The notes below the pieces were generated by a model. It did no database searches. It was not told the origin of the DNA and saw only the letters and a list, made by a program, of their open reading frames with translations. A stretch of 41,520 nt of DNA from a virus. The position numbers and the translations under genes are program-made. The DNA is taken from positions 1 through 41,520 of the IMG/VR virus record IMGVR_UViG_3300009505_000025; one strand, written 5' to 3'. Of the stretch, positions 1,306 to 34,271 are shown piece by piece; position 1 is the first letter of the stretch; each line of letters opens with the position of its first letter.

Positions 1306-2741
1306 TGGATAGAATACCGGGTTACTCTGATGAGATGATGTATCGTCAGTCAAAGTTACTACACGGAATAGTATTTAAAACCAAATTAGTAAAAACGGGA
1401 AGAGGTAAGAATGCCGTTATGGTTGAGCAGAGATGCTACGAACATACTGAAGAGGTGGAGCGAAGAGCAATCGAAAGTCTTGAATATTACAAAGACAGAA
1501 TGGAAAATAAAAAATCAAAAATTAAATACAGAGAATATCAGAAAAAAATTATTGTTAAAGGAAGCGAAATACTTACATTAAAAGGCTTTTTATATCTAAC
1601 GATGGAGGTTAGAACAGGCAAGACACTTACAAGTTTAGGTATAGCTAAACTTAAAAATAAAAAAAATGTTTTGTTTGTTACTAAAAAGAAAGCAATCAGC
1701 AGCATAGAGAATGATTATGATTTACTTAACCCGGACTTTAGTATTACAATTATAAACTATGAATCATTACACAAAGTGGAAGGTGTTTTTGATTTAGTAA
1801 TATTAGATGAGGCACATAGTATGGGTGCATTCCCTAAACCAAGTAAACGTGCTAAGCAAGTAAAAGAACTATTACAAAAATCAGACAACCCAAATGTAAT
1901 TCTGTTATCAGGTACACCTACTCCTGAATCTTATAGTCAGATGTATCATCAAGTTTATGGGATAAAGGGAAATCCCTTTTCAAGCTTTGTAAACTTTTAT
2001 AAGTTTTCTAAACAGTATGTAAATGTTAAGCAAAGAAAAATCAATTCTCTTTACATAAATGATTACCACGATGGTCATCAAAAGATTATTGATGAGATGA
2101 AACCATATACTATTTCTTACTCACAAAAAGAGGCAGGGTTTAAGGTAGACACTCGTGAACACATACTTGAGGTAGACGTTGAGCCAATTACAAAGAAGCT
2201 TACGGCTCAATTAAAAAAACATAGGGTAGTAGAAGGGAAGGAAGAAGTTATACTTGGAGACACTCCCGTAAAGCTTATGATGAAGCTTCATCAATTATAT
2301 TCAGGGACCATTAAGTTTGAGTCAGGCAACTCAACAATTATAGATTATTCAAAAGCACAATTCATACACGACAACTTTGCAGATGTAAAGATTGGAATCT
2401 TCTATAAGTTTAAAGAAGAACTGAACGCACTTAAGAAGATATACGGAGACCAACTGTGCACAGAACTCAGTGTCTTTGAAGACACAAGTAAGTCTATAGC
2501 CTTACAGATTGTATCGGGTCGTGAGGGTATATCCTTACGAAAAGCAAAGGCACTTGTATATTATAACATAGACTTTAGTGCTACAAGCTATTGGCAGTCA
2601 AGAGATAGAATGACAACTAAAGATAGATTGGAATCAGATGTGTATTGGATATTCGCTAAGGGTGGAATAGAAAAAGATATTTATAAAGCAGTATCAAAGA
2701 AGAAGGACTTTACAGTAAATCATTTTAAAAAGATAATATGA
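1305..2741 (+). CDS. DEAH/SNF2-type superfamily 2 helicase
   Basis: This is a 478-aa superfamily 2 ATPase. Motif I is EVRTGKT with the P-loop lysine at residue 106, motif II is DEAH at residues 168-171, and motif III is LLSGTPTP. The C-terminal lobe carries SGREGISL and YWQSRDRM, which match motifs V and VI of SNF2-like helicases. Such phage enzymes remodel or unwind DNA during replication or recombination. I chose the ATG at 1305 because it overlaps the upstream TAA (TAATG). The frame is open upstream to an ATG at 1260, which would add 15 residues overlapping the previous gene and looks unlikely. One copy of the 16-bp repeat GTGTCTTTGAAGACAC lies in frame at 2470-2485, encoding VFED within SVFEDTS. 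The stop overlaps the next start (ATGA). Confidence 0.88.
   Translation: MDRIPGYSDEMMYRQSKLLHGIVFKTKLVKTGRGKNAVMVEQRCYEHTEEVERRAIESLEYYKDRMENKKSKIKYREYQKKIIVKGSEILTLKGFLYLTMEVRTGKTLTSLGIAKLKNKKNVLFVTKKKAISSIENDYDLLNPDFSITIINYESLHKVEGVFDLVILDEAHSMGAFPKPSKRAKQVKELLQKSDNPNVILLSGTPTPESYSQMYHQVYGIKGNPFSSFVNFYKFSKQYVNVKQRKINSLYINDYHDGHQKIIDEMKPYTISYSQKEAGFKVDTREHILEVDVEPITKKLTAQLKKHRVVEGKEEVILGDTPVKLMMKLHQLYSGTIKFESGNSTIIDYSKAQFIHDNFADVKIGIFYKFKEELNALKKIYGDQLCTELSVFEDTSKSIALQIVSGREGISLRKAKALVYYNIDFSATSYWQSRDRMTTKDRLESDVYWIFAKGGIEKDIYKAVSKKKDFTVNHFKKII
2470..2485. repeat. 16-bp near-palindrome, copy 1 (in helicase gene)
   Basis: Exact GTGTCTTTGAAGACAC on the plus strand: seven-base arms around a TG centre. 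In the helicase frame it reads as part of SVFEDTS. Confidence 0.85.
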
Positions 2742-3055
2742 ATAAACAAATAGCAAAACAACTACAATCATTTACTGATGAGGTGTGTAGAAGGTATTCC
2801 AATAAAGAAAGAAAGAACAACTACAATAATGAAACTTTTAGTGTGCAGGAAATTATACCAACAAGCGACCATACTGCAACTGTTATTTATGAAAAGAACA
2901 CGGGGAAAAGAGCAGCATTCTTTTTCTACTACATCCCCGGCATAAAAAGATGGCATTACTTTGTACCTACCGATAGTCATATAAACGGAATGACTTGCTT
3001 TTCAAATCAAAAGATAGAGGTCGAAAGGCATAACTATAGATATAACTTCCAATAA
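2738..3055 (+). CDS. Hypothetical protein, replication operon
   Basis: This 105-aa protein is one I do not recognise. It starts in an ATGA overlap with the helicase stop, so its expression is probably coupled to it. The sequence is basic and aromatic, with a central segment (KRAAFFFYYIPGIKRWHYF) that looks like a small beta-rich domain. There is no signal peptide or membrane segment. Position suggests a helper in DNA replication or recombination, without direct evidence. Confidence 0.7.
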   Translation: MNKQIAKQLQSFTDEVCRRYSNKERKNNYNNETFSVQEIIPTSDHTATVIYEKNTGKRAAFFFYYIPGIKRWHYFVPTDSHINGMTCFSNQKIEVERHNYRYNFQ

Positions 3056-3062
3056 AATATTT

Positions 3063-3070
3063 TATATTTG
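3063..3070 (+). promoter_or_regulatory. Possible Bacteroidetes-type -7 element (TATATTTG)
   Basis: TATATTTG fits the Bacteroidetes -7 consensus TAnnTTTG and lies in one of the few gaps of the plus-strand operon (3056-3074). No TTG-type -33 box is seen at the usual distance, and only four bases separate the motif from the ATG at 3075. Transcription from it would therefore start at or inside the 60-aa gene. It may be chance in AT-rich DNA. Confidence 0.25.
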
Positions 3071-3074
3071 TTAT

Positions 3075-4576: not shown

Positions 4577-4577
4577 A

Positions 4578-5193: not shown

Positions 5194-5316
5194 ACTCTTT
5201 GATAGCTTAGATTTTTTAAATCCATCAGTTGCGTAGTAGAGTTTCACTTGTTTATCAGTGAACACCCTACCACTTGGACTTACGTTTTTATTTGGACCAA
5301 CTTTCTTAAATGGCAT
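5161..5316 (-). CDS. 51-aa basic protein, downstream of the giant ejection protein
   Basis: Reading the minus strand from 5316 gives an uninterrupted 51-aa frame that begins MPFKKVGPNKNVSPSGRVF, continues DKQVKLYYATDGFKK, and ends in a run RKRRRKKKD before TAA at 5161. Its ATG overlaps the TAA of the 2971-aa gene (TAATG), the same coupling seen elsewhere in this genome. The strong basic tail suggests nucleic-acid or virion-DNA binding. The SPSGR-F-KQVKLYYATDGF core looks like a compact conserved domain; I think I have seen similar short proteins in marine phages but cannot name a family. It overlaps the convergent nuclease gene by 33 bases. Confidence 0.75.
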   Translation of the reverse strand: MPFKKVGPNKNVSPSGRVFTDKQVKLYYATDGFKKSKLSKSSRKRRRKKKD

Positions 5317-8300
5317 TAGTTATATATGTCTTTAAGTTCATCTTTAACTTCTTTTTTCATCTGTTTTAACTCCTGCTCGATTTCATATGTGGGTCTTTCT
5401 TTCCCGTATAGTTCTTCGTACAACTCAGGGTCAATAGCCTTTATTGTTCTCTTACCTTCTGCAGTAGTTGTTTTCTTTTTAGTTTTACTCTTTGGTTTAG
5501 TTTGCCCATAACCCGGTCTGTAAGATGGTGTAATACCAAGTGCATCATACATATCATCCGAGTCTCCACTACCACCAAGAAGTTTTATTAATCCTATTGG
5601 TGCATCAAGTTGCATTCCTGAATAAATTTCTAACAACACTCTCGTTGCTTGAACTAACCCATCAGGACCACTGACATCTTTAATACTCTTGAATATTTTC
5701 CTAACTACAGATGTTAATGGGTTTACAACATCAGAGATTGGCTTTCTATCTTTCTCAGCGTATGCTATTGCCGTTTCAATTGCAGAACCCATAATAGGTA
5801 TAGCATAGATTAAGTTAAGTCCTAACGCTGCATCTCTCAATGCTTTGTACGCTCTATCTTTCTCTCCATCTTTACCGTGAAGTAATGCAGGTGCGTATGA
5901 CACTGCGGTAAACGCAACGTTTGCTAATGAATAATTTAAAAGCAATTTACGAAGCTGCTCTCTCTTAGGCATTTTACCCTTCATAATGTCGCTTGTTACA
6001 TTCATAGAAGATTGGTAAACGTTGTTCATCATTAGAAATAAAGAACTACCAAACATTGTAAACGTTCTGTTAAGAGCATCTGTGCTTTGCTGAAGTCCTA
6101 CTTTTTCTGTTGCTCTTCTTGATTGCTGAGTAGAGTTATAGTCATTGAAATTTCTAAGTGCTTCATTTTTATCTACACCATTTCTGATTTGTCTGTTGTA
6201 TAAAGCTTTGTATCCGAGTACACCAAGGATATCCCCTGCCACTGTAGTAAAACCTTTTACTTTTGTAAATGCTCTTGCAGCACGACCCTTTCTACCTTGT
6301 TGTGCTTTTGTTTTCTTAAAAGTTCTACCACCCGATTCAATACCAAATACATCACCTTCTAAACCTTGCTTGATACGATTATCAAAAGTTGCCGATATCT
6401 CTCTTGCTTCCTTAATATTTTTTCTTAAGAACAACAATACCTCAGCATAGTCTTTCATAAACCCAAGTGTGTCTAACCCCGGGATATATTTACCTGATGG
6501 CAATGCGTTATACTTTTGCCACGCAAATATAAATGAAGACATCTGCTTTGGAATCTGAACCAATTTCAGTGCTAAAGCAAAACCTGTAAACAAAGATTGT
6601 AATTTTGTAACGACATCTGCACTCTCTACTTGTGGTCCCGAATCAGGATTAATGGCATAATTAAGCGACCTTGAAAACAATTGCTTCATACCTGTTTCGT
6701 TTAAAAGGTTTTGTATTCCTTGGTCCTGAAGTATTGCGTTCATTTCCTTAACACCTACGGCATATGCTTTGTACTTCTCCATAGCCTTAACGTGCTCCTC
6801 CATAACCTCACTGAAAGACAAGCCTAATAAAACATCTCCTGTTAAATCAACACGCTCTTTAAGTGCAGGTGAAAACTCTGCAGTAAACACCTTGTTAAAT
6901 TCTCCTTGAAGAATCATATCGTTGGTGATTGCTCCTTTACTAATTGTTCTTGTAGGAAAGTAATTTTCTACATAACCAAGACTAACATCATTTACTTGTT
7001 GGTAAACTGCATTGGTCTCTTCAAAATATTTATTACTTAAAAAATCTACAGTTTGCTCTACCAACTCTTGATTGTCTTTACCAATAAATGTTTTAACCAA
7101 TTCTAAATCCACCTCCATCTTAGCCAACTTTTCTGCCTGAATTGGGTTTAGAGATAACGCATAGATTCTCATTGCTTGGTCTTTATTGAAAACATTTGAG
7201 GTTCTATTACCTGTTTCTGTATCTATAAATGACAACTCTTGAACATCTGTTCCTAATGAATACTTCCAATCGGTCCATTTTTTACCGTGAGTAGAATTAG
7301 TCATAGCATTCATATCACTTTCGGTTCTTCTAACACCTTGAAGATTTCTTTCATCGAAGTCGTTCAACACATTAAAAAATGTTTCAGTAAACATTCCGTC
7401 TCTATTTCCGTCAAGTATATTAGTAAACGTTTTAAAGTGAGTAACATAGTTTTGCATAAACTTAGCTACACCATTTGATGTTAAATCTTTTACACCATCT
7501 TCTTTAAACTGATTAAAGAATGCAGTAACCGCTCCAAATAATCCTTTTTCTTTAAATGCTTTTCTAATAAACTGCTTATTCTTCTCAAGACCGTTATCGT
7601 TTAGTGGATTACCGTTCTCATCATATAGCTGACCAAAGTCGTCTTTTATTTGTTCATTAAACTCTTTTTGTTTTTCTTCTACTTTCTGTCTTCTTTCTTC
7701 TTTTCTGTTGTTTAATCTTTGAATTGATTCTTTCCTTGCACTCTTGACATCTTCGAGTAACTCCTGAACATCTTCGAGTTCCATTGTCATAACGTCTGAA
7801 AAAGAATCCATTGCAATTCTTCTGTCAAGAAGTAATTTTTCTTTTGATGTAAGCTTCTTACCTTCCTCTTGTTTCTGAAGTATTTCTGTAATCCTTTCGT
7901 CTCTAACGCTATCTGCTAATTCCTGTAATGTTTCGAAGTCTTGTTTCATTACTGCATCCAAAACTTCTTTTACTTGAGAGAAATAGGCTTGACCTATTGC
8001 ATCTAACCCTGCTGCTCTTACCTTGCCTGAAGATGTTTTAGATTTTCTTGCTTTCTTTTTTACTATAGTTAGGATGTCTTTTATTACTCTGTTCTTTTCA
8101 TTATTTCTTTCAATCTCAACTTCTTTTAAAACCTCAGACATTTTACCTATGAAGTTTTTAGGTGTAGTTGTGTTGACTGTTTTTAGCAATCTGTTGATTA
8201 CTGTTTTAGAATAATTCTTACCTGCAGGTAGAAGCTTACGAATAATCATTCTCATTCTTCTTTGTGCATCTGTAAGATTATCTGCACTTATCTTTCTTTG

Positions 8301-11300
8301 CTTAAGATTTTTCTTAATGTTATTTATTTCTCTTGCAACCTTAGCATTTCCTCTAATACCAAGTGCTCTATCAAATGCAACAAGTAACTCGTTCTGTAAT
8401 TGTTCAGTTTGAATTTTAAATATTGGGTCGGCTTTTAAAGTATCAAATGCTTTTTCTCTTATCTCAGAAAAAGTTTTAATTCTTCCCGTCTTGTCAAATG
8501 CAAATTTATTTACTGCAGTTCTTACATTATTAAATAATCTAAAACCAACTTTTGCACCTTCGTTCACATCTCCAAAAACTCTTGGCATAGGAACTCTTAA
8601 TCCTATGTTTACCACCATTGCCTTGTTGATATCAGTTGCACTAAAGCCTCTGTTTTTTAACACTACTCTAATTGATTCATCAGGGATACCTTGGTCTCTT
8701 CCTTTCTGAATAATACTATCTATACTCATCCCGGAACTAAACATAGCTTCAGGGTTTTTTAAAGCTTTTGTTTGAGCCTCTGTCATCTTCAGTGGCTTAC
8801 CTGCAAAGATATCTGCTAATGCAGTACCTAAGAATTCATCAAGTGTTAAGTTTTGAATCTCTTCTGCTGACAGGTCTTTAGACATTTTAAATTGAGACTT
8901 GATATAATTCCACATACCAATCAACCATTCGCTGAACTTGGACTTGATAGAACCATTAACTATTGTCTCACCTTTATTACCAATAAGAATAGCCATAGCT
9001 TCTCTCGTGGCTTTATCTACATCACCATCAAATCTTTTAAGTTGTTTTTTAAACTCATCAGTTTCTTGAACAACCTCAGCACCCCTCTTGTAAATCTCTC
9101 TACCTTTCTTTGTTGTCTGTAAGTAGTCTGTCCAAACGTGACCCATCTCGTGTATAGATGTATTGTACAAGGAAGACTTGGTTTCGTGCACCTCAGGGTT
9201 GATATAAATATCTCCATCCACTGTTACACCATAAATAATTTCATCACCTCTTAGATACGTTCTAACGTTGTCTTGAGACATTACATTGTTGAATGTATCT
9301 ACGTCTGAATTGATTACTACAGACGGGAACGCTAAGTTCATAAATGCATTTAGTTTGGTAGACTCATCAGGATTGATGGCTGCCATAATACCAATATAAT
9401 CTTTATCCGGAACACCAATCCCCACACCTGTTGTTTGAGTTCTTTTTGTTTTAGCAGCAAACTTTTTACCACTTGATTCAGAGGTAATCATCTTAGCCAT
9501 TATCTTTTCGAAAGCTTTAGGATATACCGTTTCCATTGATTGTGGATTTTCAAGTATACCAATTGACTTTCCTCTAACACCATATTTGTAATTAGGATGT
9601 GTGGTCTCTATGATACCCGGATTTAAAACATCAACACCAACCAACGCAACAACGTTACCAATAGGTACGTTTTTTAGTTGTGGGTCTGTAAGTAAATTAG
9701 TTATCTGAGCCAAGTTTAATTTAGCTGCATCCTGTTCTACACCTTTCAAAAGTTCTTTTACTGTAACCTTTGTGCTTTTAGTTACTCCTCCAACTTTCTT
9801 TTCTTTACCCTTAGCTTCCTGAATGACTCCTGTGGTTAGGTATCCAACCAACTTTGCTCTCATAGGTAGAGACATATTCTCTATAAATTGAGGAGTAAGT
9901 GCTTGGTCCATTGTTTCAACCTTGCCTTCTCTAAATCTTTTTAATAGGTCAGTTAGGTTTCTAATATTCTTTTTATCAGTAGCGTTCTTTTTAGGTTTAG
10001 CCTTTAAATTAACTAAGTCCTGCTTCATCTGTGTTTTTAAAACACGAACTGCTGACTTTCTGTTTCTCTTAGGCAACGTACCTATATTATCTGCTAATAC
10101 TCTTACAACTGCTTCGTTAGATTGCATAGCATCTTGACCCATCTTAACAATGTTCATTGGAACCAAACCATTGTACTCAGGATTCTTTGCCCAAAAATCT
10201 TTAAATATTTCTTGGTTTTCTTGATAGATTTTTTCTGCTCTTCTTATAATAGTCTGAGCCTCTTTCTCTTCCACATTTGCCCAAGCTGCTTGTTCATTGC
10301 CTACAGTTCCATTGAAACCAATCGCACCCTTAAGGTCTTCAATTACATTCCCCGTAACAGGATTAGTAACGGTTCCTGTTGTTAGTTGGTCTGTAATACT
10401 AAACATAGTAGGAACACCCTTGACAACTTTAAGATTAGTAATCTTCAGTGGTTTATCTGTTCTACTATTTAGTTCATCAACATCAATCTTTTCTGATGTC
10501 ATTTCATCAGGTGTAATCTTAACATCAACGTTTGGACTTTCCATTGCGTTTATTGCATTGGTCACTTCATCTTCAGCTTCTTGCTTTGCATTTTCATCAG
10601 TAGTCTCATCTATCTCTAATCTGAAATCTACCTTTGGTTTTTTACCTGATTCCTCTTCTTTTAGTGAAGCCTCAAAGTCTTCTGCTGCTTGTTGGTTTTC
10701 TGTTTCTTTTGTTTCTTCTATAACACCAACACTTGCTTGACCTTGACCTTGATTAAGAGCAGGAGTTGTTTGAGTACCCTCAGGCAATGCCGGAGTGGTT
10801 TCTTCAGTTTGTGTCTTTGAAGACACTTCTTCTGTTGTTGTAGGAACAATGCCTGTTTCTGTAGGAACTTCACTTTGTTCTTCGCTTACCTCTGTTTCAG
10901 CTTCAGGTGTATCTCTTACCTCTGTTTCAGTTTCCGTAGTTGTTTGAGCACCACCTCTTGCTTCTTGAATATTTGCTTCAACTAACTTTCGAGAAACTAA
11001 CTTAGATACCTCATCATCATTATCTACAGTTGCACTCATACGAAGCAACTCATTAGGACTAAGTCCATTTATAAAATTAACAAACTCTTCTTTAGAAACT
11101 TGTTGTAATCTTCCAAATCTATTTTTCTTAATTCTATAAGACGGTAACCCTTCTCTTACATCAGAAACGTTTGCTTGTTCTCCAATAGAAAAAACACCTG
11201 TACCTGCAAGAATAGTTTGCTCGTTTAGTGGTCTTGTTTTTCGAGTAGTAATTATGTCCTCTAACTCTTTATTTATTTCACCAATCTTATTACTGAAAAT

Positions 11301-14231
11301 TGATTTTCTATTTGGTGTTGATGACATTTCTTCCTTAGCTGCAAGAAGTTCCATAACTCTTGTTTCTACTTCGCCATTTCTTTTAATTCTTGAAAATGCT
11401 CCTGTGTTATTTAACAGTTCCCTTGCAGTCTTTCTTAAACCAACATTCATTTGTATACGCTGATTAGTCTCAGCATCTATCTGACCAAGACGTTCCATAT
11501 TATTTGCCCAAGCAGAAATCTTAGTTCCTGAAGACAACTCATCAGACATAAACTTTATATCTGTAAATGCTGATGCTAACTCTAAGTTGTTTCTGCTTCT
11601 TGCTTCCATAGCAAGATTAATTGCCATATTAGATGTGTTGTTACCCATAGCACCACCCATCTCAGCCATTATCTCTTTGATGTTTATATCATCACCAACT
11701 GTTATTTGAGCAGCAAGTTCGCCAAAGCCTTCACCAATTGGGTCAGCTATCATACGTTCTGCAGTTAAAGCTGCAATTCTCGCTCCTTTTCCTGATACAC
11801 TTCCAACTCTTATAAGGTTACCTGCTAATTTTGCAGTAATTAAATCTACAATAGCAATTGGAACACCTCTTTTAAATCCACGCTCTTTACCTTCTGCCCA
11901 AACTTTTTCGTCATTCAAAGCTTTTGCCACAGACTCAGGGTCTGTCATATCGTATCCTTGATTTGTAATAGCCTCAAGAACTGCGTTGGTATATTCCATT
12001 GCCAATGAAGTAGCTGCAAACCCTGTTCTTGTACCCCAAGTAAATCCTGTTGCTGCTCCGGCAGCATTACCTGCACCGGGAACAATACTACCGTAGGCAA
12101 ACCCTGTTGCAGTACCTGCAGCCATAGATATAGGAATAATCTTTTTACCATACGGCAACATCATAGAGATACTATGTGCTGCTAATGATGTCATCCACTC
12201 AAATGGGTCGTCTAAAATAACATCCCAATTCTCATCCATATTGGATGCTTTCTCCCATCTATTTAAAACTCTTGACCTTTTATCAGAAGTTCGATTCATA
12301 TAGTCTACAATCTTCTCTGCCATTAATGAAGTAGACTCAGGGTCTTTAAGGTCAATACCATCCATAAACCCCGGGTACATTGTAGCGGCTAAAATTAAAT
12401 CACCTGCTTTACCCATATTGGTTCCGTTCTCTAAGGCTACTTGAAACCCTTCCCAATTTTCAGCATACTCTTTTTCAGCATACTTGTCGTACTTTAAATC
12501 ATAGTATGTTGAAGCTTCTTTATAAGCATCTGCAGCAATCTGAGATTTGTATTGTTGAGCACCATACTCTAATTCAATAACTTTTTTTAACTCAGCCTCT
12601 CTTTCGTTTTGTGGTTCGTAAAGACTTAATTCACTTGGCTTCACACCAAAATATCTTAAGCTTTTATTTTCAATTGCTTGTTCAGCTTCTTTTGCGGCAA
12701 CGTTTATTTTTATTGCATCCCCAATAGTAGCCTTTCTTCTTTTTTCAAGATAAAGGTCTGCTTCTTCCCTAACATACATTGCTTCGTCATCAAGATATGC
12801 ATCTGCTAATTCTTCTCTTCTTTCTGTAGCAGCCTTTTTAAGTTCATAAGAATCATCCCTTAATCTACCATTGATATAAAATTTATCATATTTTATTTGG
12901 TCCTGAGGACTAAGGTCTTCTTGTTTAAACGGAGCACCACTTAAAAAGTTTTCTGTGTCTTTAGCTTCGTCATAATCAGATAAAAGTTTTCTTTCAGTAG
13001 AATAATCAAGACCTCTCTCTTGATAGTATTTTTCCATCTCTGCCTCTGCAGTAGCCACATCTTTCCAACTGCCCTGAGCAAAAGCCTCTGCTTCTTCTTT
13101 GGTGTCGAATTCAAAAACCTCATCTCTTTCTCTTGCCAATTTTAAAGCATCATCAAAAGTTAAGTCTTGATGCCACCACATTCCATCTGATGTATAGTGG
13201 TCAGGATTAACAGGATGCAGCATAGGTATAACCTTGTGCTTACCATCCTCTTCAAACGAGGTCATTTTAACAGTTGATACTGTTCCGTCTTCGTTTTGTA
13301 AAGGAATCTTTCTTAATGTTTTTGCTTTGATTGCTTTTTGAACTTCAGACGATAAAGGTTTTTTAGCAGCACCACCAAGGTTTCCTTTTATAAAGTTTCT
13401 TAGTTTATCTGCTCCTTGTCTTTCCCCGTCAGATGTGAACGGGTCTAAATCAATTGTAGTTGTAGTTTTTCCATCAGGTGCAGTTACAGTAACGTTATCA
13501 CCAATACCTGATTCAACAAACCTAAACCCATATTTTTTAAATTTCTTTATTAAAAAAGGAACAACTTCTTCCTCTTCTTTATCTATAAGAGAAGCATCTA
13601 TTTGTGATATTTCATTTATAAAAGTTTCGTCTTGTAGTACACCTAATATCTCCGCATTCTTTAACTCTCTTTCTATTTCTTTAGCTTTAGCCTCTTGCTC
13701 TTGTTGTAGTCTTAGGTCCGGTAAATCTTTATTTCTTTGCTCTGTCGTAAAAGCAAAGTCTGCTGCCATTTGGTTTTGTGCTCTTTCAAGAACATTTTGC
13801 TCAGGATACATACCCATATTTTGGGTAGACATAGGACTTACATAACCATCTTCTCTTGTGTCTTGTGGAGCACCCGGTGCGGTTGGGTCAAAACTAAATG
13901 TACTTGGGTCAAATTCAGGAATGTCGGACAAATCCGAAGAACCATCTTCCGAAGAAGAAACCATATCTTCTTGTGGTTGGTCTTTTTTTTTTACTCCTGC
14001 AAAAAATTCAGGAAACTTAGAATTTATAATATCGTAATTTCCTGAGTATTCCGGATTATTATAAGTGGCAATATAGTCCTGTAATACCTGAACATCTATT
14101 CCACTAAATTCAGGAAACTTAGAATTTATTACATCTATATTCCCTTTATATGCCGGGTTGTTAACCGTAGTAATGTAATCCCTTAACAGTTGTTCAACCT
14201 CTTCTTTTGTTTTGCCTTCTAATGGATTCAT
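5316..14231 (-). CDS. Giant ejection/polyvalent virion protein (T7 gp16-like position) with zincin-type HEMGH motif
   Basis: This 2971-aa protein is the last large gene of the ejection block. The N-terminus has two 34-residue repeats ending NSKFPEF. A Gly/Ala-rich hydrophobic region at about residues 690-760 could insert in membranes. A Thr/Glu/Pro-rich linker near 1085-1170 precedes a folded middle region. HEMGHVWTDYL (residues 1694-1704) is a zinc metalloprotease motif. Lys/Glu-rich coiled-coil stretches fill about 1950-2200. The C-terminal 500 residues, with hydrophobic segments and a basic tail, resemble the large polyvalent-protein-associated domains (LPD38 type) of phage ejection proteins. 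It probably enters the host with the DNA, as T7 gp16 does, and may cleave peptide bonds there. No lytic transglycosylase or polymerase motif was found, but I cannot exclude one. Confidence 0.8.
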   Translation of the reverse strand: MNPLEGKTKEEVEQLLRDYITTVNNPAYKGNIDVINSKFPEFSGIDVQVLQDYIATYNNPEYSGNYDIINSKFPEFFAGVKKKDQPQEDMVSSSEDGSSDLSDIPEFDPSTFSFDPTAPGAPQDTREDGYVSPMSTQNMGMYPEQNVLERAQNQMAADFAFTTEQRNKDLPDLRLQQEQEAKAKEIERELKNAEILGVLQDETFINEISQIDASLIDKEEEEVVPFLIKKFKKYGFRFVESGIGDNVTVTAPDGKTTTTIDLDPFTSDGERQGADKLRNFIKGNLGGAAKKPLSSEVQKAIKAKTLRKIPLQNEDGTVSTVKMTSFEEDGKHKVIPMLHPVNPDHYTSDGMWWHQDLTFDDALKLARERDEVFEFDTKEEAEAFAQGSWKDVATAEAEMEKYYQERGLDYSTERKLLSDYDEAKDTENFLSGAPFKQEDLSPQDQIKYDKFYINGRLRDDSYELKKAATERREELADAYLDDEAMYVREEADLYLEKRRKATIGDAIKINVAAKEAEQAIENKSLRYFGVKPSELSLYEPQNEREAELKKVIELEYGAQQYKSQIAADAYKEASTYYDLKYDKYAEKEYAENWEGFQVALENGTNMGKAGDLILAATMYPGFMDGIDLKDPESTSLMAEKIVDYMNRTSDKRSRVLNRWEKASNMDENWDVILDDPFEWMTSLAAHSISMMLPYGKKIIPISMAAGTATGFAYGSIVPGAGNAAGAATGFTWGTRTGFAATSLAMEYTNAVLEAITNQGYDMTDPESVAKALNDEKVWAEGKERGFKRGVPIAIVDLITAKLAGNLIRVGSVSGKGARIAALTAERMIADPIGEGFGELAAQITVGDDINIKEIMAEMGGAMGNNTSNMAINLAMEARSRNNLELASAFTDIKFMSDELSSGTKISAWANNMERLGQIDAETNQRIQMNVGLRKTARELLNNTGAFSRIKRNGEVETRVMELLAAKEEMSSTPNRKSIFSNKIGEINKELEDIITTRKTRPLNEQTILAGTGVFSIGEQANVSDVREGLPSYRIKKNRFGRLQQVSKEEFVNFINGLSPNELLRMSATVDNDDEVSKLVSRKLVEANIQEARGGAQTTTETETEVRDTPEAETEVSEEQSEVPTETGIVPTTTEEVSSKTQTEETTPALPEGTQTTPALNQGQGQASVGVIEETKETENQQAAEDFEASLKEEESGKKPKVDFRLEIDETTDENAKQEAEDEVTNAINAMESPNVDVKITPDEMTSEKIDVDELNSRTDKPLKITNLKVVKGVPTMFSITDQLTTGTVTNPVTGNVIEDLKGAIGFNGTVGNEQAAWANVEEKEAQTIIRRAEKIYQENQEIFKDFWAKNPEYNGLVPMNIVKMGQDAMQSNEAVVRVLADNIGTLPKRNRKSAVRVLKTQMKQDLVNLKAKPKKNATDKKNIRNLTDLLKRFREGKVETMDQALTPQFIENMSLPMRAKLVGYLTTGVIQEAKGKEKKVGGVTKSTKVTVKELLKGVEQDAAKLNLAQITNLLTDPQLKNVPIGNVVALVGVDVLNPGIIETTHPNYKYGVRGKSIGILENPQSMETVYPKAFEKIMAKMITSESSGKKFAAKTKRTQTTGVGIGVPDKDYIGIMAAINPDESTKLNAFMNLAFPSVVINSDVDTFNNVMSQDNVRTYLRGDEIIYGVTVDGDIYINPEVHETKSSLYNTSIHEMGHVWTDYLQTTKKGREIYKRGAEVVQETDEFKKQLKRFDGDVDKATREAMAILIGNKGETIVNGSIKSKFSEWLIGMWNYIKSQFKMSKDLSAEEIQNLTLDEFLGTALADIFAGKPLKMTEAQTKALKNPEAMFSSGMSIDSIIQKGRDQGIPDESIRVVLKNRGFSATDINKAMVVNIGLRVPMPRVFGDVNEGAKVGFRLFNNVRTAVNKFAFDKTGRIKTFSEIREKAFDTLKADPIFKIQTEQLQNELLVAFDRALGIRGNAKVAREINNIKKNLKQRKISADNLTDAQRRMRMIIRKLLPAGKNYSKTVINRLLKTVNTTTPKNFIGKMSEVLKEVEIERNNEKNRVIKDILTIVKKKARKSKTSSGKVRAAGLDAIGQAYFSQVKEVLDAVMKQDFETLQELADSVRDERITEILQKQEEGKKLTSKEKLLLDRRIAMDSFSDVMTMELEDVQELLEDVKSARKESIQRLNNRKEERRQKVEEKQKEFNEQIKDDFGQLYDENGNPLNDNGLEKNKQFIRKAFKEKGLFGAVTAFFNQFKEDGVKDLTSNGVAKFMQNYVTHFKTFTNILDGNRDGMFTETFFNVLNDFDERNLQGVRRTESDMNAMTNSTHGKKWTDWKYSLGTDVQELSFIDTETGNRTSNVFNKDQAMRIYALSLNPIQAEKLAKMEVDLELVKTFIGKDNQELVEQTVDFLSNKYFEETNAVYQQVNDVSLGYVENYFPTRTISKGAITNDMILQGEFNKVFTAEFSPALKERVDLTGDVLLGLSFSEVMEEHVKAMEKYKAYAVGVKEMNAILQDQGIQNLLNETGMKQLFSRSLNYAINPDSGPQVESADVVTKLQSLFTGFALALKLVQIPKQMSSFIFAWQKYNALPSGKYIPGLDTLGFMKDYAEVLLFLRKNIKEAREISATFDNRIKQGLEGDVFGIESGGRTFKKTKAQQGRKGRAARAFTKVKGFTTVAGDILGVLGYKALYNRQIRNGVDKNEALRNFNDYNSTQQSRRATEKVGLQQSTDALNRTFTMFGSSLFLMMNNVYQSSMNVTSDIMKGKMPKREQLRKLLLNYSLANVAFTAVSYAPALLHGKDGEKDRAYKALRDAALGLNLIYAIPIMGSAIETAIAYAEKDRKPISDVVNPLTSVVRKIFKSIKDVSGPDGLVQATRVLLEIYSGMQLDAPIGLIKLLGGSGDSDDMYDALGITPSYRPGYGQTKPKSKTKKKTTTAEGKRTIKAIDPELYEELYGKERPTYEIEQELKQMKKEVKDELKDIYN
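10811..10826. repeat. 16-bp near-palindrome, copy 2 (in giant ejection gene)
   Basis: Exact GTGTCTTTGAAGACAC on the plus strand. It lies in the Thr/Glu-rich linker of the giant gene (about residues 1136-1141), whose minus-strand frame reads it as VSSKT, a frame different from copy 1. Confidence 0.85.
14004..14129 (-). repeat. Two tandem copies of a 34-residue coding repeat
   Basis: Within the start of the giant ejection gene the DNA word AAATTCAGGAAACTTAGAAT recurs with an offset of 102 bases (beginning at 14004 and 14106 on the plus strand). The encoded units share NNP-Y-G-D-INSKFPEF. An exact multiple of three and near-identical DNA point to a fairly recent in-frame duplication. Confidence 0.8.
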
Positions 14232-26099: not shown

Positions 26100-26122
26100 C
26101 TTAGAATAAGTGATTATTACTA

Positions 26123-26875: not shown

Positions 26876-26898
26876 TATTATAAAATTTAATTAAAGTT

Positions 26899-26934
26899 TA
26901 AAAAAAGGGAGAGTGTCTTCAAAGACACTCCCCC
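26899..26934 (-). terminator. Intrinsic terminator after the major capsid gene, built on the 16-bp repeat
   Basis: In the minus-strand RNA a 13-bp stem with one G-U pair (26907-26919 with 26922-26934) is followed by a run of seven U (26900-26906). The inner 16 bases of the stem (26913-26928) are exactly the repeat GTGTCTTTGAAGACAC that occurs three more times inside genes. It lies 13 bases beyond the capsid stop, so it should end most capsid transcripts with some read-through into the 250-aa gene. Confidence 0.88.
26913..26928. repeat. 16-bp near-palindrome, copy 3 (in capsid terminator)
   Basis: The reverse orientation GTGTCTTCAAAGACAC on the plus strand. It forms the inner part of the terminator stem after the capsid gene, the only intergenic copy. 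Confidence 0.85.
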
Positions 26935-26946
26935 AATATAATCATC

Positions 26947-28398
26947 TTAATCTTGGAATAAGAAGAAGTTGTTAGCACCTAAAGTACATACTGCTCTTTC
27001 AGATAAGAAGTGAACCTCCATAGCATCTAAGCTTGAAGTTTCTGCTCCACCTGCTGAACCTGTAATCCAAGTCTTGTAACGTCTGTCTTCAGTTTCTGAA
27101 GCTCTATATCTAACGTGCAAGAATGGTCTCTTAGCGTTTTTACCTAACACTTGGTCGTATACTGAAGTAGAACCTGCAGGAACTAAAAGTCCATTAACTC
27201 TACCTGAGCCACCAACACCTACCGGTCCTGATGCTAAACCACCTCTCATAGTTGGGTCGTTTAGATATTTCCAATCAGACTTGTAGAAGTCATATCCTCT
27301 TCTGAATCCTGTGAATCCTAAGTTCAATGCCATTTCTTTTTCGTTGTCAAATAGACCGTAAGAAACACCACCTGCAGCATTAGAAGATTGCAAAGAAAGC
27401 ATATCATCAATGTCGAAAGAGAAATCTCTATCTACAAAGATTACGTTTTCTTCGATTGCTCCTTGCTTGTCAAGTCTTGAAATAACTGTATCCCACTCAG
27501 TAAGAAGGGTTGGGTTTCCACCACCCCATACGTTACCTCTGTCTTCAACAACGTAGAAGATACCTTCAGAACCTTTGTTACCTACATCTTCAGCACCTAC
27601 TACTGATTGAGTAGCAACACCACCTGCTGCATCAGCAGGAACTGCTTCAATCATAGAAGTTTCCAAGTAGTCATCAAATCTAAGTCTTGTTTCGTGCTCA
27701 GACTTCAAATACCATAGGTATCCGTTTGCTCCATTTTCAGTTGTAATTTCTACCCAACCGATTTGAGCCATATCTGAACCTGATACTGCATACTTATCTT
27801 TAATGATAATTGGAGAGTTCTCGAAGATAAAGTCATCAGCCTCAAGAGAACCTTTCATTCCGTGAGTACCTTTTTTAAATTCAGAACCGTAAATGAATAC
27901 AGTAAACTTCGCAGCCGCACCTGCAACAGGAATACCTGTATCAGGATAAGTTGCAACCTTGAAAGTTTGTGCTGCGTAATCTACTTCAGTTACAATACAT
28001 TTAACTGAACCACCACCTGCATTGTCACTCACCATTACAGTTTGTCCAATTCTGATTGCGATACTGTTACTTGCACTGAAAGCAGGGTTACCTGCATCAT
28101 TCACTGCTAATGTAAACTCAATATCTCCTGCAAGTGCAGCAGTAGTACAGTCTACATATTTAGTGTGAAGTCTTCCTTGTTCTGCCCATTTGATAAGGTC
28201 AGAGTTAGAAGGCATTTCTGCTCCTACCATTCTAAGGAATGAGGAGATTGTTCTATTACCATATCTTTCGAATTCCTTTTCATAAGTATCAGGAAGATAC
28301 TGATTCAAGAAATCAAAATTAGTAATATAGTTTGACTTAAGCGGTACTCTTTGAGCACTTGGTTGTAAGTCAAAACCGGGAGTTGTTTGTACACTCAT
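26947..28398 (-). CDS. Major capsid protein
   Basis: This is a 483-aa protein in the capsid position, following the scaffold and portal genes. The N-terminal arm (LKSNYITNFDFLNQYLPDTY) is followed by a helix (RTISSFLRMVGAEMPSNSDL). The long, evenly mixed alpha/beta body with Gly/Ala loops fits an HK97-fold capsid protein of the crAss-like or related podovirus type. Most HK97 capsids of this size are cleaved or rely on a separate scaffold; the separate acidic scaffold gene supports the second. It is followed by a strong terminator and preceded by an unusually A-rich leader (ten A), both fitting high expression. Confidence 0.85.
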   Translation of the reverse strand: MSVQTTPGFDLQPSAQRVPLKSNYITNFDFLNQYLPDTYEKEFERYGNRTISSFLRMVGAEMPSNSDLIKWAEQGRLHTKYVDCTTAALAGDIEFTLAVNDAGNPAFSASNSIAIRIGQTVMVSDNAGGGSVKCIVTEVDYAAQTFKVATYPDTGIPVAGAAAKFTVFIYGSEFKKGTHGMKGSLEADDFIFENSPIIIKDKYAVSGSDMAQIGWVEITTENGANGYLWYLKSEHETRLRFDDYLETSMIEAVPADAAGGVATQSVVGAEDVGNKGSEGIFYVVEDRGNVWGGGNPTLLTEWDTVISRLDKQGAIEENVIFVDRDFSFDIDDMLSLQSSNAAGGVSYGLFDNEKEMALNLGFTGFRRGYDFYKSDWKYLNDPTMRGGLASGPVGVGGSGRVNGLLVPAGSTSVYDQVLGKNAKRPFLHVRYRASETEDRRYKTWITGSAGGAETSSLDAMEVHFLSERAVCTLGANNFFLFQD

Positions 28399-29552: not shown

Positions 29553-29575
29553 ATTTAATTGAATTTAATTTTATA

Positions 29576-29583: not shown

Positions 29584-29610
29584 CACAAAAATTATTATAG
29601 TTTTAGACGG

Positions 29611-32046
29611 TTACCTTGGGTTAAATTCTGCAAGGTCAAACCCATCTAAACTATCCTCGTTTGATTCAAAGTTAATCGGAGGTAAATTGTTTTTACGTTG
29701 GTTAATCATTTTGGATTGTTCTGTATTAGCTTGAGAAATTCTTTTTGCTTTTGCATCTTCTCTTTGAGTCTCTCTGCTTTGTAGTAATTCTGCATCTGCA
29801 CCTCTTAATTGCATATTTAAGTCAAACTCTTGTTGCATTAATTGAGATTTCAATTGTGCTTCAGCTTTTAATTTCTCTATTTCAAAAGCAATGTCGGCTT
29901 GTCTAAACTCCATTTTTGCTTTTGTCTCCATTTGCACTTTCATCTGTGCTGCCTGAACTGCCATCTCTTGAGACTTAAGTTGTTGTTGAGACTGCATAGC
30001 TTGTTTCTGCATAGCCATTTTTTCATCTTTCTCTTGCTTAGAAACCCTTTTCATTTTAAGAAGTTGGTTAGCAAGTTTAAGATTTTTTATCTCACGAATA
30101 TCAATAGCATCCTCTAAATTAATATCACCTTTAGATAAAGCCATTTGGATGTTTTGTTCCAATTGTTGTTTTTGTTCTTCATCCGGTGCTAACTCAATAA
30201 ATATTCCGAAATCATATATATACAAATCATTTATATCACTTAATATAGAGACGTTGTATTTACCGATTTGGTTTATAAATTCTTCTTTAAAGTCAGAGTA
30301 TTGCAAAATGTCAGCTACTCTATATGTAGTTGCCTCAGCAAGACTACGATATATGTATAAGCTTCCATCTAAAATATGTCTTGTCGCTACATTTGAATTT
30401 AATGCAGCTAACTTTTGTAACCCAACCAAAGAGTTAGGGTCAGGTGTGCTTCCATCTCTTGCTTCGTTTAGCCCTGTTACTAATCTAATTTGGTTTAGAT
30501 AATGATTGTAGTTGCTTAAAAGCATTTGAGTTTTCGATGCACCCGAAGATGACTGTAACTCTTTTATAGGAATTCTTGCTTGATTAAAGTCTCCTTCTTG
30601 AGTATAACTTCTACCAATAACAGAACCTGTTTGAAAATACAACCTTAAAGCATCCTCGGGATTATAGGCATTCCCTGTGCCAAGGTCCACTTCATTCAGT
30701 CCATCAGCATCAATAAACACACCATCAGGTACAACTCTCGCTATAACCTGTTGTAGTTTTAAATGTGTAATCTGAATCAAATCAGCGAAAGGTATCATTC
30801 TTCTTACTAAAGATTCAATAACACCTTTATACATTCTTGGTGCAACTGCCACATAATTTGGTATAGCGTGTTGGGTTGCTGATTGAGGTCTAACCATATT
30901 TTCCATCAAGTCCCACTTGAGAATAATGTTAGTACCCATAACCATTACCCCTTCATACCATACGTCAACTGTTTTTTGAACTTTTTCAAAGTTTCCTTCT
31001 TCCTGCATTTCAACAGGTGGATTAAAGGTGTCATCCTTTTCCACCATAGTTACATTACCATTATCTTTTACTTTTCTTTTATAAGTGACTTTTTTAGTAG
31101 ACTTATAATTAAAGTACATTAACGTAGCAGTATCCTTATAGAAAATATCATTTTGATAATATTGTGCTACATTAAAATAATCAAACCAACTTTGTGCATA
31201 TGAAGATATTTCTTCTAAATCGTTGTTAGTTAAAGTTGGGTCAATTTTAATTAACTCAGTAATTGGTACTGTTTTAATTTCTCCCCAATAGAAACAATCT
31301 TTAAAGTGTGGGTCTTCTGTATAGCTATAGACAACATTAGCAGGGTCAACATATTTAAGTCTAACCCCATCACCGGGTAAAAATTCGTGCTTTGCTACTG
31401 AAACACCTAAAACAGTTAAATCATAATCTAACTGCTTTCTTATATCATTATATTTATTGCTTTCAAATATTGTTGAAATCGCTTCTTCCTCTGCTATTTC
31501 AATTGCAGGTTTATAGTTCAACTGCATATATAGCTTTAACTCATCATCAGTTTGAGGAAGTTCATCCGGTTCCATAGTAAAAGGATTCACACCGGTTTTC
31601 TGTTGTATAGTTTCGAGCATTGGTTTAGCTACCATTTGCCCTTCAATCATTTGTTGATACTTGCTTCTTTTAGATTGAGACATAGCATCTTGTGCGTAAG
31701 CCTTAACGCTAAACTCTCTATCCTGCATACCGTTAACTACGATATCTACAAACTTAGGTAATACAGGTACGGGGGTCCAATCCAAATTTAGATAAGACAA
31801 ATCTCCGTCAACTGCTAATTCGTTTTTATATTTTCCTGTACCTTGTTCACCTCTTGCGTACAATCTTAGTCTATTGAAGTCTCTCCACTGACTAAAGTAT
31901 CTGCAACCACTGCCGTCTTTTTTAAACCATTCGTATTGAATAGCCTGTCCTATTTGTAACCCAAATTCATCAGTAGATTTCTCTGAATCAGATACAAATT
32001 GACTTGGAAATCCGGCAGATGATATATTTATGTTTACTTTTTTCAT
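29611..32046 (-). CDS. Portal protein
   Basis: This is an 811-aa protein directly after the large terminase, which it overlaps by four bases (ATGA). The first 350 residues hold the wing/stem part typical of podovirus portals (NLDWTPVPVLPKFVDIVVNG, then a conserved-looking LKYVDPANVVYSYTEDP). Residues about 600-780 are a long Gln/Lys/Met-rich helix (KEDEKMAMQKQAMQSQQQLK-like composition), which would form the barrel or crown reaching into the head. Size and order fit the crAss-like and marine podovirus portals. It is the docking ring for terminase and connector proteins. Confidence 0.85.
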   Translation of the reverse strand: MKKVNINISSAGFPSQFVSDSEKSTDEFGLQIGQAIQYEWFKKDGSGCRYFSQWRDFNRLRLYARGEQGTGKYKNELAVDGDLSYLNLDWTPVPVLPKFVDIVVNGMQDREFSVKAYAQDAMSQSKRSKYQQMIEGQMVAKPMLETIQQKTGVNPFTMEPDELPQTDDELKLYMQLNYKPAIEIAEEEAISTIFESNKYNDIRKQLDYDLTVLGVSVAKHEFLPGDGVRLKYVDPANVVYSYTEDPHFKDCFYWGEIKTVPITELIKIDPTLTNNDLEEISSYAQSWFDYFNVAQYYQNDIFYKDTATLMYFNYKSTKKVTYKRKVKDNGNVTMVEKDDTFNPPVEMQEEGNFEKVQKTVDVWYEGVMVMGTNIILKWDLMENMVRPQSATQHAIPNYVAVAPRMYKGVIESLVRRMIPFADLIQITHLKLQQVIARVVPDGVFIDADGLNEVDLGTGNAYNPEDALRLYFQTGSVIGRSYTQEGDFNQARIPIKELQSSSGASKTQMLLSNYNHYLNQIRLVTGLNEARDGSTPDPNSLVGLQKLAALNSNVATRHILDGSLYIYRSLAEATTYRVADILQYSDFKEEFINQIGKYNVSILSDINDLYIYDFGIFIELAPDEEQKQQLEQNIQMALSKGDINLEDAIDIREIKNLKLANQLLKMKRVSKQEKDEKMAMQKQAMQSQQQLKSQEMAVQAAQMKVQMETKAKMEFRQADIAFEIEKLKAEAQLKSQLMQQEFDLNMQLRGADAELLQSRETQREDAKAKRISQANTEQSKMINQRKNNLPPINFESNEDSLDGFDLAEFNPR

Positions 32047-34271
32047 CTAATAATTTCGCTATATTTGCCCTTGTTACTATACCTTGCAAAGTTAACCTTT
32101 ATTTTTGAAACTTTTTTCTCAGGTAAATAAAGGTGTTTCTGTGTTGCCATAATTGCTAAGCCTGAACTAATAGAAGCATCATACTTAGTTCTATTGCTAA
32201 TATCAAACTTTGCCCAATCTTCTAAAGTTCTTGAAAAAACCATATCTCCAACCTCCATATCATCTTTAAAACCTATATTAGTTTCAATATAAGATTCAAT
32301 CGCAGAAGCGTGTGCTTGTTTTACTGCTTCACTTGAGTTAGGTATTCCACCCAACTCTCTTTCAGTTTTTGATAATTTAGTATATGCCTTATCAGGTCTA
32401 TTCATACAAAACCCTCTATACCCTCTGTTTTTAAAATGATATAATAATCGAGGCTTATTGTTTTCTATTAATATGGGCATACCATAAAAAACACAAGCCA
32501 TTAAAACATCTTCAAAAAATATTTCTGCAGTTTGTGGTCTTGCTATGTATTCTAAGAAAAATTCATTACTTGGTGCTTCAGCCATACTAAACATAGTCTT
32601 CCCGTGCAGTGCTCCATTAGAGCCACCACCACCAACTACACCTGATATGTCATAGCTATCACACCCGAATGCACCTATGTGTTCATTGCCGGGATACTTA
32701 ATACCTCTTCTTATATCAACCCTGTTTTGTAAAGACTTATTAGGAGTCCAAGAAACTAAAAACCTTCCTCTATTATTTGGAGAAAATATTACCTCAGTAT
32801 CTTTAACTCCATTCTTCCAACTCAATGACCCTCTCGTAATATGGTGGTCAATAATTAATGAATCATTGTAATCTATTTGCTGATATATTTTAGTTAGATT
32901 AAAAAGAGACTGTTTACTTTCATCTCTAAATGCGTGAGACTCAGTTCTTGGGAATTGTCTGTAATATTCATTTAATGCATCAGGGTCATTTTTTAAAGAC
33001 TCAACTTCGTTTTTCCAATAATTAATTGCTCCTTGATGTATTAATTCATTATCTATTCCAACAACAGGTTCTTCCGGTGTGTCAAAAACGGGCATACCAT
33101 ACCTATCTATAAACCCTTCCATATTCCATTCCATAGGGATAAAAAGTGAATACAAACCGCTTTTGGTTTGACCATTTGCATTTCGTTTTCCCACATCAGA
33201 GTCTGTGTATAGTTTTTTAAAATTATCACCACCCTTTTCAAGTGCATTTGATGTGGACCCCATCATACATTTCCCTATAATTTTACTACCTAACCTTAAA
33301 CAAGTTTTGGTAACTCTCCAATTATTTAAAATGTTATTAGGCTTTATCCATTTACCACTTTCATCGTGGACTAATAATAATAATTTTTCACCATCATAAC
33401 TGTTATCATCTGTGTTCTTCCAATCAATAGTAGTATCTAACCCATACAACTCATCATTAGTTGTATCATACATATTTTTCTTTGTAATCTTTGCCGCAGG
33501 AATTCTAAAAGCCAACTCTGTTTTTGGCTTATCCATACCATCCATAATAGGTTTAAAGAAAAACGGCAGCCTACTGTTTATAGGAACTACTTTATCTGTA
33601 AACATTTTTTTAGCATCAGAACCTGTCTTAGACAATATACCTACTCTTGAATCTTTTGCAAGTGTCCCTGTATTAACACATTCAGATGATGACATAAAAG
33701 AAAAGCCTGAACGTCTTATCTTTAAGTATATCATTCCAAAACTCCTTGTGTCTGCCTTTGATGCTTCCCAATAAAGAAACAATATTCTATTAGCTTCTCT
33801 AAAGTCCGGATAACCCACATCTATACTTGTCCATTGCAGATACATATAATGTGCTCCGGTTATGTATGTTGGTTTACCATTGGACATAAACCATAAACCT
33901 TGCTCCCTTCTATCAAACTCTTCCTCAACATAATCCACCCATCTGTCTTTGAATTCAGATGACATTTCATTCCATTGAAATATAGATTGTATTTTATTTA
34001 ATTGCTTAGGAAGGTCTTCTCTTTCCCAATATTGTTCTTCAGGGTTTTTGTGTCTTTGAAGACACTTTTTTGGTTCTAATGGTAACGCTATCTTTAATCC
34101 ACTTATACTGATAACCTCACCAATCTGACCTGTCTTAGAAATAACTACAAACTCATACTTAGTGTCATACCCATATTTCCACGTTTTAGCCTTGTTCTTA
34201 GACTTTAAAACATTTTTTGGTACAACACCATTAAGGGTTATAAATAAGTTATTTAGACCTTCTCTCTGCAA
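32043..34271 (-). CDS. terL: Terminase large subunit (TerL)
   Basis: This is a 742-aa packaging motor with ATPase and nuclease halves. Walker A is KIRRSGFS (residues 184-191): the lysine normally found after the final glycine is replaced by Phe, with a Lys upstream, as in lambda gpA. Walker B is LLLLVHDES with D303 and E304. A coupling motif MMGSTSN follows near residue 340. The nuclease half has the first acidic residue in FGCDSYD (about residue 540), a second in ILIENNKP and a further Asp-rich stretch near the C-terminus (FKDDMEVGD). An exact copy of the 16-bp repeat lies in the N-terminal coding part at 34050-34065, encoding CLQRH. The gene overlaps the candidate small terminase by 23 bases. 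Confidence 0.9.
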   Translation of the reverse strand: MQREGLNNLFITLNGVVPKNVLKSKNKAKTWKYGYDTKYEFVVISKTGQIGEVISISGLKIALPLEPKKCLQRHKNPEEQYWEREDLPKQLNKIQSIFQWNEMSSEFKDRWVDYVEEEFDRREQGLWFMSNGKPTYITGAHYMYLQWTSIDVGYPDFREANRILFLYWEASKADTRSFGMIYLKIRRSGFSFMSSSECVNTGTLAKDSRVGILSKTGSDAKKMFTDKVVPINSRLPFFFKPIMDGMDKPKTELAFRIPAAKITKKNMYDTTNDELYGLDTTIDWKNTDDNSYDGEKLLLLVHDESGKWIKPNNILNNWRVTKTCLRLGSKIIGKCMMGSTSNALEKGGDNFKKLYTDSDVGKRNANGQTKSGLYSLFIPMEWNMEGFIDRYGMPVFDTPEEPVVGIDNELIHQGAINYWKNEVESLKNDPDALNEYYRQFPRTESHAFRDESKQSLFNLTKIYQQIDYNDSLIIDHHITRGSLSWKNGVKDTEVIFSPNNRGRFLVSWTPNKSLQNRVDIRRGIKYPGNEHIGAFGCDSYDISGVVGGGGSNGALHGKTMFSMAEAPSNEFFLEYIARPQTAEIFFEDVLMACVFYGMPILIENNKPRLLYHFKNRGYRGFCMNRPDKAYTKLSKTERELGGIPNSSEAVKQAHASAIESYIETNIGFKDDMEVGDMVFSRTLEDWAKFDISNRTKYDASISSGLAIMATQKHLYLPEKKVSKIKVNFARYSNKGKYSEIIR
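34050..34065. repeat. 16-bp near-palindrome, copy 4 (in large terminase gene)
   Basis: Exact GTGTCTTTGAAGACAC on the plus strand, followed there by a run of six T. In the terminase (minus) frame it reads as CLQRH, a third reading frame. Confidence 0.85.

Follow-up and report, generated by a model that had tools for sequence, protein, structure and literature searches.

The virus record IMGVR_UViG_3300009505_000025 of IMG/VR was analysed from position 1 to 41,520. This whole stretch, here termed the window, is a 41,520-base fragment of an approximately 60-kb podovirus related to Flavobacterium and Cellulophaga phages, and it carries a 16-bp palindromic word, GTGTCTTTGAAGACAC, in four exact copies (Table 1). 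A first-pass annotation, made from the sequence alone, had reported these four copies, three of them in three different reading frames of genes and one as a terminator stem, and all of this is borne out. The expected number of copies is 0.00 (100 dinucleotide-preserving shuffles of the window, 0 of which gave the copies), and beyond the four exact copies the window holds no site at three or fewer mismatches.

The copy at 26913 lies in a terminator-like hairpin, where a pattern scan of the minus strand shows GGGGGAGTGTCTTTGAAGACACTCTCCC and then TTTTTTTAAA, i.e. the GC-rich stem and T run of an intrinsic terminator. Watson-Crick pairing is 2 bp longer at this copy, and ends at 16 bases in the three coding copies. 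Neither the PHROGs (E ≤ 0.001) nor PDB sequences (E ≤ 1) gave a match to the giant protein that holds the second copy. Gene finding with ATG starts only places the terminase copy outside the open reading frame in several genomes; an upstream TTG start and protein alignment place it inside.

Table 1. Positions of the 16-bp word, of the genes around it and of examples of hammerhead ribozymes (L numbers denote loci from related phages)
Feature	Position	Strand	Remarks
Word in helicase gene	2470..2485	+	Frame 1, read SVFEDT; homologous codons hold other words in phages of other word types
Word in gene of 2971-amino-acid giant protein	10811..10826	+ (gene on -)	Frame 0, read VSSKT
Word between 250-amino-acid gene and structural gene (probably capsid-like, by position)	26913..26928	-	Stem of terminator-like hairpin
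Word in terminase large subunit gene	34050..34065	+ (gene on -)	Frame 2, read CLQRH
Terminator-like hairpin around word	26907..26934	-	12 pairs, loop of 4, then TTTTTTT
DNA helicase, holds first copy	1260..2741	+	phrog_62, E 4e-55
2971-amino-acid giant protein, holds second copy	5316..14231	-	Open reading frame
Virion structural protein, upstream of the gap with the third copy	26947..28398	-	phrog_13704; probably capsid-like, by position
Terminase large subunit, holds fourth copy	32043..34271	-	phrog_6681, E 8.6e-175
Hammerhead ribozymes, examples from early regions	L280:11637-11695; L281:14548-14607; L276:4180-4239; L377:1252; L219:6545		

Among named phage records, the terminase and portal proteins are nearest to those of MW202828 (75%), followed by Flavobacterium phage elemo, Maribacter phage Panino and Cellulophaga phages. 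A megablast search of window positions 1-25000 against named phages gave nothing useful. Over 34.4 kb the window shares 94.7-94.9% identity with record G021, which reaches into the early region, a region that is not part of the window and is where relatives carry most copies. The word GTGTCTTYRAAGACAC (the A word) occurs in 33 of 45 records examined, and its reversed control is absent from all of them. Among the 45, each of the 18 records that are at least 54 kb in length and hold the early protein P210 has 7-15 A words, and one 41-kb record has 18; it should be pointed out that most of the 45, including the set of at least 54 kb, were picked for holding the word, and G046-G050 for holding the C word described below. 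In whole records, 105 of 194 copies lie outside ATG-initiated open reading frames of at least 40 amino acids, and 254 of the 310 distinct early-region copies lie outside such frames of at least 70 amino acids on the sense strand.

In viral contigs at least 119 stretches contain the word, versus 22 in all for a sibling degenerate 16-mer. Together with the shuffles, this leaves chance or base composition with a negligible probability as the origin of the copies. The compensatory word GTGCCTTYRAAGGCAC was found in viral contigs in 22 stretches, at one place each and with no set. The word is a real, selected DNA site that is present about ten times per genome in this phage group, even within genes. 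In the literature searched, no paper turned up on the word itself, on repeated palindromes in connection with Flavobacterium or on MW202828.

The view that selection at the coding copies acts on DNA and not on protein, put forward by the annotation on the basis of the three frames, is upheld by the spelling of the terminase site. In a set of terminase genes fetched by protein (the best 80 of 599 found), 25 of the 80 rows encode CLQRH, and 22 of these 25 are spelt exactly GTGTCTTCAAAGACAC; the other 55 rows have different residues at the site. A larger set, which includes loci fetched by the word and was used for comparison of codon usage, has CLQRH spelt as the word in 38 of 41 cases, and the nearby QYWER written in 16 ways. 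Codon usage alone predicts the word spelling of CLQRH in about 1.7% of cases (a share of about 0.017). In the larger set, as in the core, early-gap and hammerhead counts given below, identical contexts were counted once. In one terminase relative (L131:2208-2223) the site is changed symmetrically at two places, to GTGCCTTCAAAGGCAC, and none of the records was seen to carry a set of GTGCCTTCAAAGGCAC.

The helicase codons offer the same kind of evidence, in that related phages have other words at the same address. MW202828 contains no A word and carries 14 copies of GTGTCGTTAACGACAC (the B word), all at 43.7-55.2 kb of its 60.9 kb. G046 and G047 have 15 and 16 copies of GTCTGTTNNAACAGAC (the C word), nearly all with A and T flanks, and G048 has a looser GTC[CT]GTT form (the D word) in 4 strict or 8 relaxed copies; the word associations of G046-G048 and MW202828 rest on records chosen for their words. 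Where word-bearing genomes were checked for repeated palindromes, the A, B or C word was the dominant one, except in G048, where the sites vary and no single palindrome dominates. Eighteen records were asked about the helicase codons. The A word is found there in 8 of the 18, including G009, which has no P210, the C word in G046 and G047 (read SLFQQT and GLFQQT) and the D word in G048 (SPFERT). Three word types thus each have their own word at the same codons, read SVFEDT, SLFQQT and SPFERT. In G010 the A word lies 12 columns earlier than in other A-word helicases, the site is empty in G018, MW202828, G029, G030 and G031, and the helicase of G012 is cut. A and C phages alike have sites in the capsid gap, in the gap between the P210 and amidoligase genes, and some 20 bp ahead of the GGACT gene. 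Both also have sites within the Sak/Erf gene, at differing codons, and within the giant gene.

The sets of other words also bear on a proposal of the annotation that did not hold up, namely a mobile or recombination word, considered here together with an insertion word that spreads over the genome by copying. Identical copies at unrelated places are what such an element would leave; however, relatives differ at the terminase and helicase sites through substitutions that leave the length of the site unchanged, and the flanks outside the 16 bp share weak base preferences only (A/T and G/C). With relatives holding whole sets of different words, a mobile origin appears highly improbable. Rather, because relatives pair another word with a divergent version of one early protein, the word looks like that protein's private genome-wide binding address.

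The architecture of the site was analysed in 1.33 Mb of loci that contain P210. The pattern GTGTCN6GACAC is present at 419 distinct places, of which 418 are word-like, and the reversed control at 0. The centre of the word is a pyrimidine-purine step in 418 of 419, and single half-site substitutions are mostly at position 6, on both sides. This two-sided variation around the pyrimidine-purine centre supports the suggestion of the annotation that the dyad suits a dimeric DNA-binding protein, and, as judged from the sequences, it appears to fit symmetric duplex DNA recognition better than an RNA stem. In early gaps, the distance from the word to the next ATG is 10-30 nucleotides in 111 of 200 cases, and the distance from the stop codon to the word is 0-20 nucleotides in 127 of 173. 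Word-to-ATG distances show two peaks, at about 15-30 and about 70-85 nucleotides, and some ATGs of the short class belong to hammerhead cores. A fixed promoter element beside the word was considered and rejected, as the information content over 359 sites stays at or below 0.08 bits at every position from 16 to 70 bp upstream.

The longer gaps between word and ATG often contain type III hammerhead ribozymes. In 3 kb of locus L280 there are four matches to RF00008, three at E 3.7e-6 to 3.2e-5 and one at 0.062, all below the gathering score; the CUGAUGA...GAAA core, the three stems and the closing of stem III are all found. Rfam at gathering scores gave no hammerhead in 7 + 4 sources, and the matches appeared on an E-value search of the short stretch. 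A model built from 14 hammerheads yields 146 matches (125 distinct) in 80 loci (L267-L346), all on the sense strand. The word ends no more than 60 nucleotides upstream of 88 of the 125 distinct hammerheads, and in 78 of these 88 it ends within -5 to +3 nucleotides of the first base of the model. The other 37 have a different upstream sequence, by eye often another inverted repeat, and therefore the ribozyme does not need the word. With this model G046, G047, G048 and G021 have one match each and elemo one weak match, and there is none in MW202828, G009, Panino, phi38:1 or the window. At L273:6782, L290:10661 and L294:10649 pieces that by eye resemble a tRNA T-arm are found in the gap between word and gene instead of a hammerhead.

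Hammerheads are described from intergenic regions of phages in the report drawn on here (PMC3088659). Those beside the word are like known type III ribozymes in that core, three stems and intergenic place match RF00008, but unlike the known phage hammerheads they number up to several per early region, and many are right behind the word of P210 phages.

The annotation had also suggested an RNA hairpin. The word might function at the RNA level as a 3′-end or processing stem beside hammerheads and terminators, or as the target of an RNA-binding protein. The closeness to the hammerheads, the terminator stem in the capsid gap and a bias of the early-gap centre on the sense strand (CA 163 vs TG 46) are all consistent with a hairpin. 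The arms, however, are nearly fixed within a word type while the centre varies; half-site variants on the sense strand of the early region give a C.A mismatch as commonly as a T.G wobble (22 vs 21); and in 12 records Watson-Crick pairing goes no further than the 16 bp for 100 of 149 copies. Hammerheads without the word, and words without any hammerhead match in MW202828, also speak against it. An RNA hairpin is thus unlikely to be the common function. The part of the suggestion that stands is that, with words often directly before hammerheads, the palindrome can in places form an RNA stem as well, namely in many of the early gaps and at the terminator of the capsid gap; word and ribozyme each also occur without the other.

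The candidate for a protein that reads the word as DNA is P210, an early helical protein of about 210 amino acids that is helix-turn-helix-like. Its gene lies outside the window (in G021 at L219:4881-5525). Among 54 records searched for P210, a word set is present in 22 of the 22 P210-bearing records of at least 50 kb; the records of that length without P210, which are G009, elemo, Panino and phi38:1, have 1, 0, 0 and 0 words of any of these types. The annotation had held that related phages lacking the word at these sites, with free synonymous change, would argue against a function. Such relatives are indeed found, but the four full-length ones also lack P210, which supports a function. G009 is a relative of 61.8 kb (terminase 73.5%, helicase 68% to G003) that has no P210, amidoligase or GGACT gene and no repeated palindrome. 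The wordless relatives G029-G032 and G034-G040, fragments of 20-46 kb, were not scored as P210-negative; G025, G027, G028, G033, G043, G045, G049 and G050 are fragments of 21-44 kb with words and without a P210 match.

A search with P210 as query found 80 loci, the best 80 of 92 relatives in viral contigs, and of these 78 have the exact word and 2 have variants. Since the query alignment is mostly A-type and from word-bearing phages, the result ties A-type P210 to the A word. With proteins of G003 as queries, P210 and an SSB-like protein of about 95 amino acids are found in 14 of 14 word-bearing genomes and in 0 of 4 of G009, elemo, Panino and phi38:1; BLAST runs from other queries failed to pick up P210 in one or two of these 14 genomes, and a profile search recovered it in every one. 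The B, C and D words accompany divergent P210 proteins. A search of viral contigs for relatives of the B-type P210 alone gave none that were useful. In a genome collection of 84,980 species, one peptide pattern gave 70 matches and no relative of P210, and thus, as far as this one pattern can tell, a temperate lifestyle is not supported.

In G048, which has P210 and words and lacks the amidoligase and GGACT genes, the words go with P210 and not with its module neighbours. Three other candidates were rejected. The winged-helix-like 'repressor' UOF82529 has homologues in G009, elemo and Panino and a weak match in phi38:1; a 100-amino-acid protein with a DnaA C-terminal domain is present in G009; and the amidoligase and GGACT genes, as a cause of the words, are both missing from G048. 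The 100-amino-acid protein belongs to the replication module (L222:398-700), and its sole match is to the C-terminal DNA-binding domain of DnaA (PF08299, E 2.4e-8). The early module encodes an amidoligase-like protein (weak match) and a glutamine amidotransferase and gamma-glutamyl cyclotransferase fusion (L224:11443-12384 and L224:16107-17219).

It might be thought that a host protein with host-dependent specificity reads the sites, and that P210 is merely carried by the same phages. Word type could follow the host. Nevertheless, word sets are missing where P210 is missing among the full-length relatives compared, and G048 again has words with P210 and without the neighbouring genes. The LexA-like SOS box of Bacteroidota, the likely host phylum, is also a palindromic repressor operator; it was rejected, as the word does not match the Bacteroidota motifs CTAA-N5-TTAG and GGA-N5-TCC, the ones given in the account consulted (PMC8565304). 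A host reader appears quite improbable.

The model of P210 (predicted local distance difference test, pLDDT, 90; predicted template modelling score, pTM, 0.71) is helical, with a small beta-beta-beta-alpha end. VIA-align places the DNA-binding domain of KorB with its operator (1r71) second, at Z 5.5 with a root-mean-square deviation of 4.0 over 100 aligned residues, and gives the DNA-binding domain of P1 ParB Z 3.7. As the KorB match, the best among DNA-bound structures, ranks below an unrelated domain, it is a lead only. These likenesses, weak as they are, and about ten dispersed palindromes per 60 kb, some within genes, are what might be expected of partition, compaction or clamp-loading sites of the ParB/parS or KorB kind, which organise or segregate phage DNA instead of controlling individual genes. 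On the other hand, the early gap sites are near gene borders, which suits transcription control, and all sites of the B phage are in the early/replication third. Of the 87 open reading frames of G003, 10 that encode early and replication proteins were scanned, and none has a ParA-like match. Pfam matches of 15 A2 members include no ParB family at E ≤ 1, a result to which no search for the CTP-binding motif was added. A role in partition is improbable, a little more so than a common RNA function.

The word is probably a set of dispersed operator- or stoperator-like sites that are read by an early phage protein, most likely P210, and that restrain transcription. The role of P210 as reader, its binding as a dimer and its repression or blocking of transcription, at initiation or during elongation, are inferred. 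The word would then be a duplex recognition site, with two GTGTCTT half-sites around the pyrimidine-purine step, and a P210 dimer would bind about ten of these in each genome, namely those in gaps that immediately precede early genes and a few that lie late, at the helicase, the giant protein, the terminase and the terminator of the capsid gap. Bound P210 may act, much as at stoperators or KorB operators, as a genome-wide brake or roadblock to transcription that is densest over the early genes. The brake would probably shut down or meter early transcription, and perhaps provide phage-type-specific exclusion.

Several findings weigh against P210 as the reader. The co-occurrence of P210 and words (copy numbers, other-word sets and most of the comparison at 50 kb and above) comes from records chosen for words. 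The SSB-like protein and a few late genes show the same presence profile as P210, and the SSB-like gene also turns up in the partial record G029, which holds no words. G009 lacks P210 and yet retains one intact word, in its helicase, and in the B phage MW202828 both the helicase and the terminase are free of sites. The CA bias of the early-gap centre is not predicted by a symmetric dimer. Pfam offers nothing convincing for P210 (the best E among 15 members is 0.006), PHROGs are also uninformative, a P210 profile gave nothing useful against PDB sequences, and the model has no Foldseek PDB match at E ≤ 0.001. The top row of VIA-align is the helical domain of CHD1, unrelated, at Z 6.0, and Z below 8 may be merely a common arrangement. 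In addition, G046 and G047 share the C word and have different predicted helix-turn-helix segments, and A2 phages accept another base at position 6 with a near-identical helix. From these two cases, the predicted recognition helix offers no simple explanation of the word. The P210 proteins of G046 and G047 (L363 and L370) are near-identical at their ends and differ in between, as though the helix-turn-helix segment had been exchanged.

A broader proposal, which is put forward tentatively and may well prove too far-reaching, is that of an undescribed regulatory code. One early protein of unknown family would read a private palindrome at about ten addresses, including helicase and terminase codons, and the set would be re-lettered when the specificity of the protein changes. 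In early operons the palindrome would double as a message-ending hairpin before a hammerhead, so that DNA braking and RNA punctuation are combined in one element. If true, this would be a clear natural example of phages that re-letter many dispersed sites to follow the change of one DNA-binding protein, with some of these sites inside essential genes and at a cost of protein sequence. P210 would be a candidate master regulator for a widespread and little-studied phage group, and the word could be used to find and type such phages.

Other genes of these phages should be mentioned. The window encodes an 831-amino-acid protein with many tail-fibre and collagen-like repeat matches (39021-41516) and a GroES-like protein (35466-36029, phrog_13932). 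Phage GroEL genes are present in the compared full-length relatives, and GroEL/GroES genes in L239 and G records.

On plasmid RK2 about 12 palindromic OB sites are spread over roughly 60 kb. In the account of RK2 drawn on here, KorB, of the ParB family, has a 16-bp operator that is proximal or distal to promoters (PMC11790492). The word resembles OB as a 16-bp operator-like site, and P210 has its weak structural match to the DNA-binding domain of KorB. Unlike KorB, P210 has no recognised CTPase domain, judged from the Pfam matches.

Stoperators of cluster A mycobacteriophages (L5, Bxb1, Trixie and TipsytheTRex) are described, in the reports consulted, as many sites per genome for a phage-encoded repressor, many of them in short intergenic gaps, where motif and protein diverge together (PMC6550527, PMC9283540). 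According to the same reports (PMC6550527, PMC9283540) they are asymmetric sites of 13 bp whose orientation follows transcription, and binding by a monomer is predicted or has been shown. The word is similar in that many copies of one repressor-type site are found across the phage genome (7-15 in each of the 18 P210-bearing records of at least 54 kb). It differs in being a 16-bp dyad with several sites in genes and a different predicted protein, in phages for which, from the one peptide pattern searched, temperate life is not supported. With respect to joint divergence of protein and motif, the B, C and D words go with divergent P210 proteins, and G046 and G047 share a word with different helix-turn-helix segments. 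With respect to orientation, the arms of the word are symmetric and its centre is CA-biased on the sense strand. Because the site is a 16-bp dyad, not a 13-bp asymmetric one, and the fold match to ParB/KorB is weak, membership in the stoperators or in the KorB system is not claimed. If P210 does read the word, these phages would provide a direct test of stoperator-like control outside temperate mycobacteriophages.

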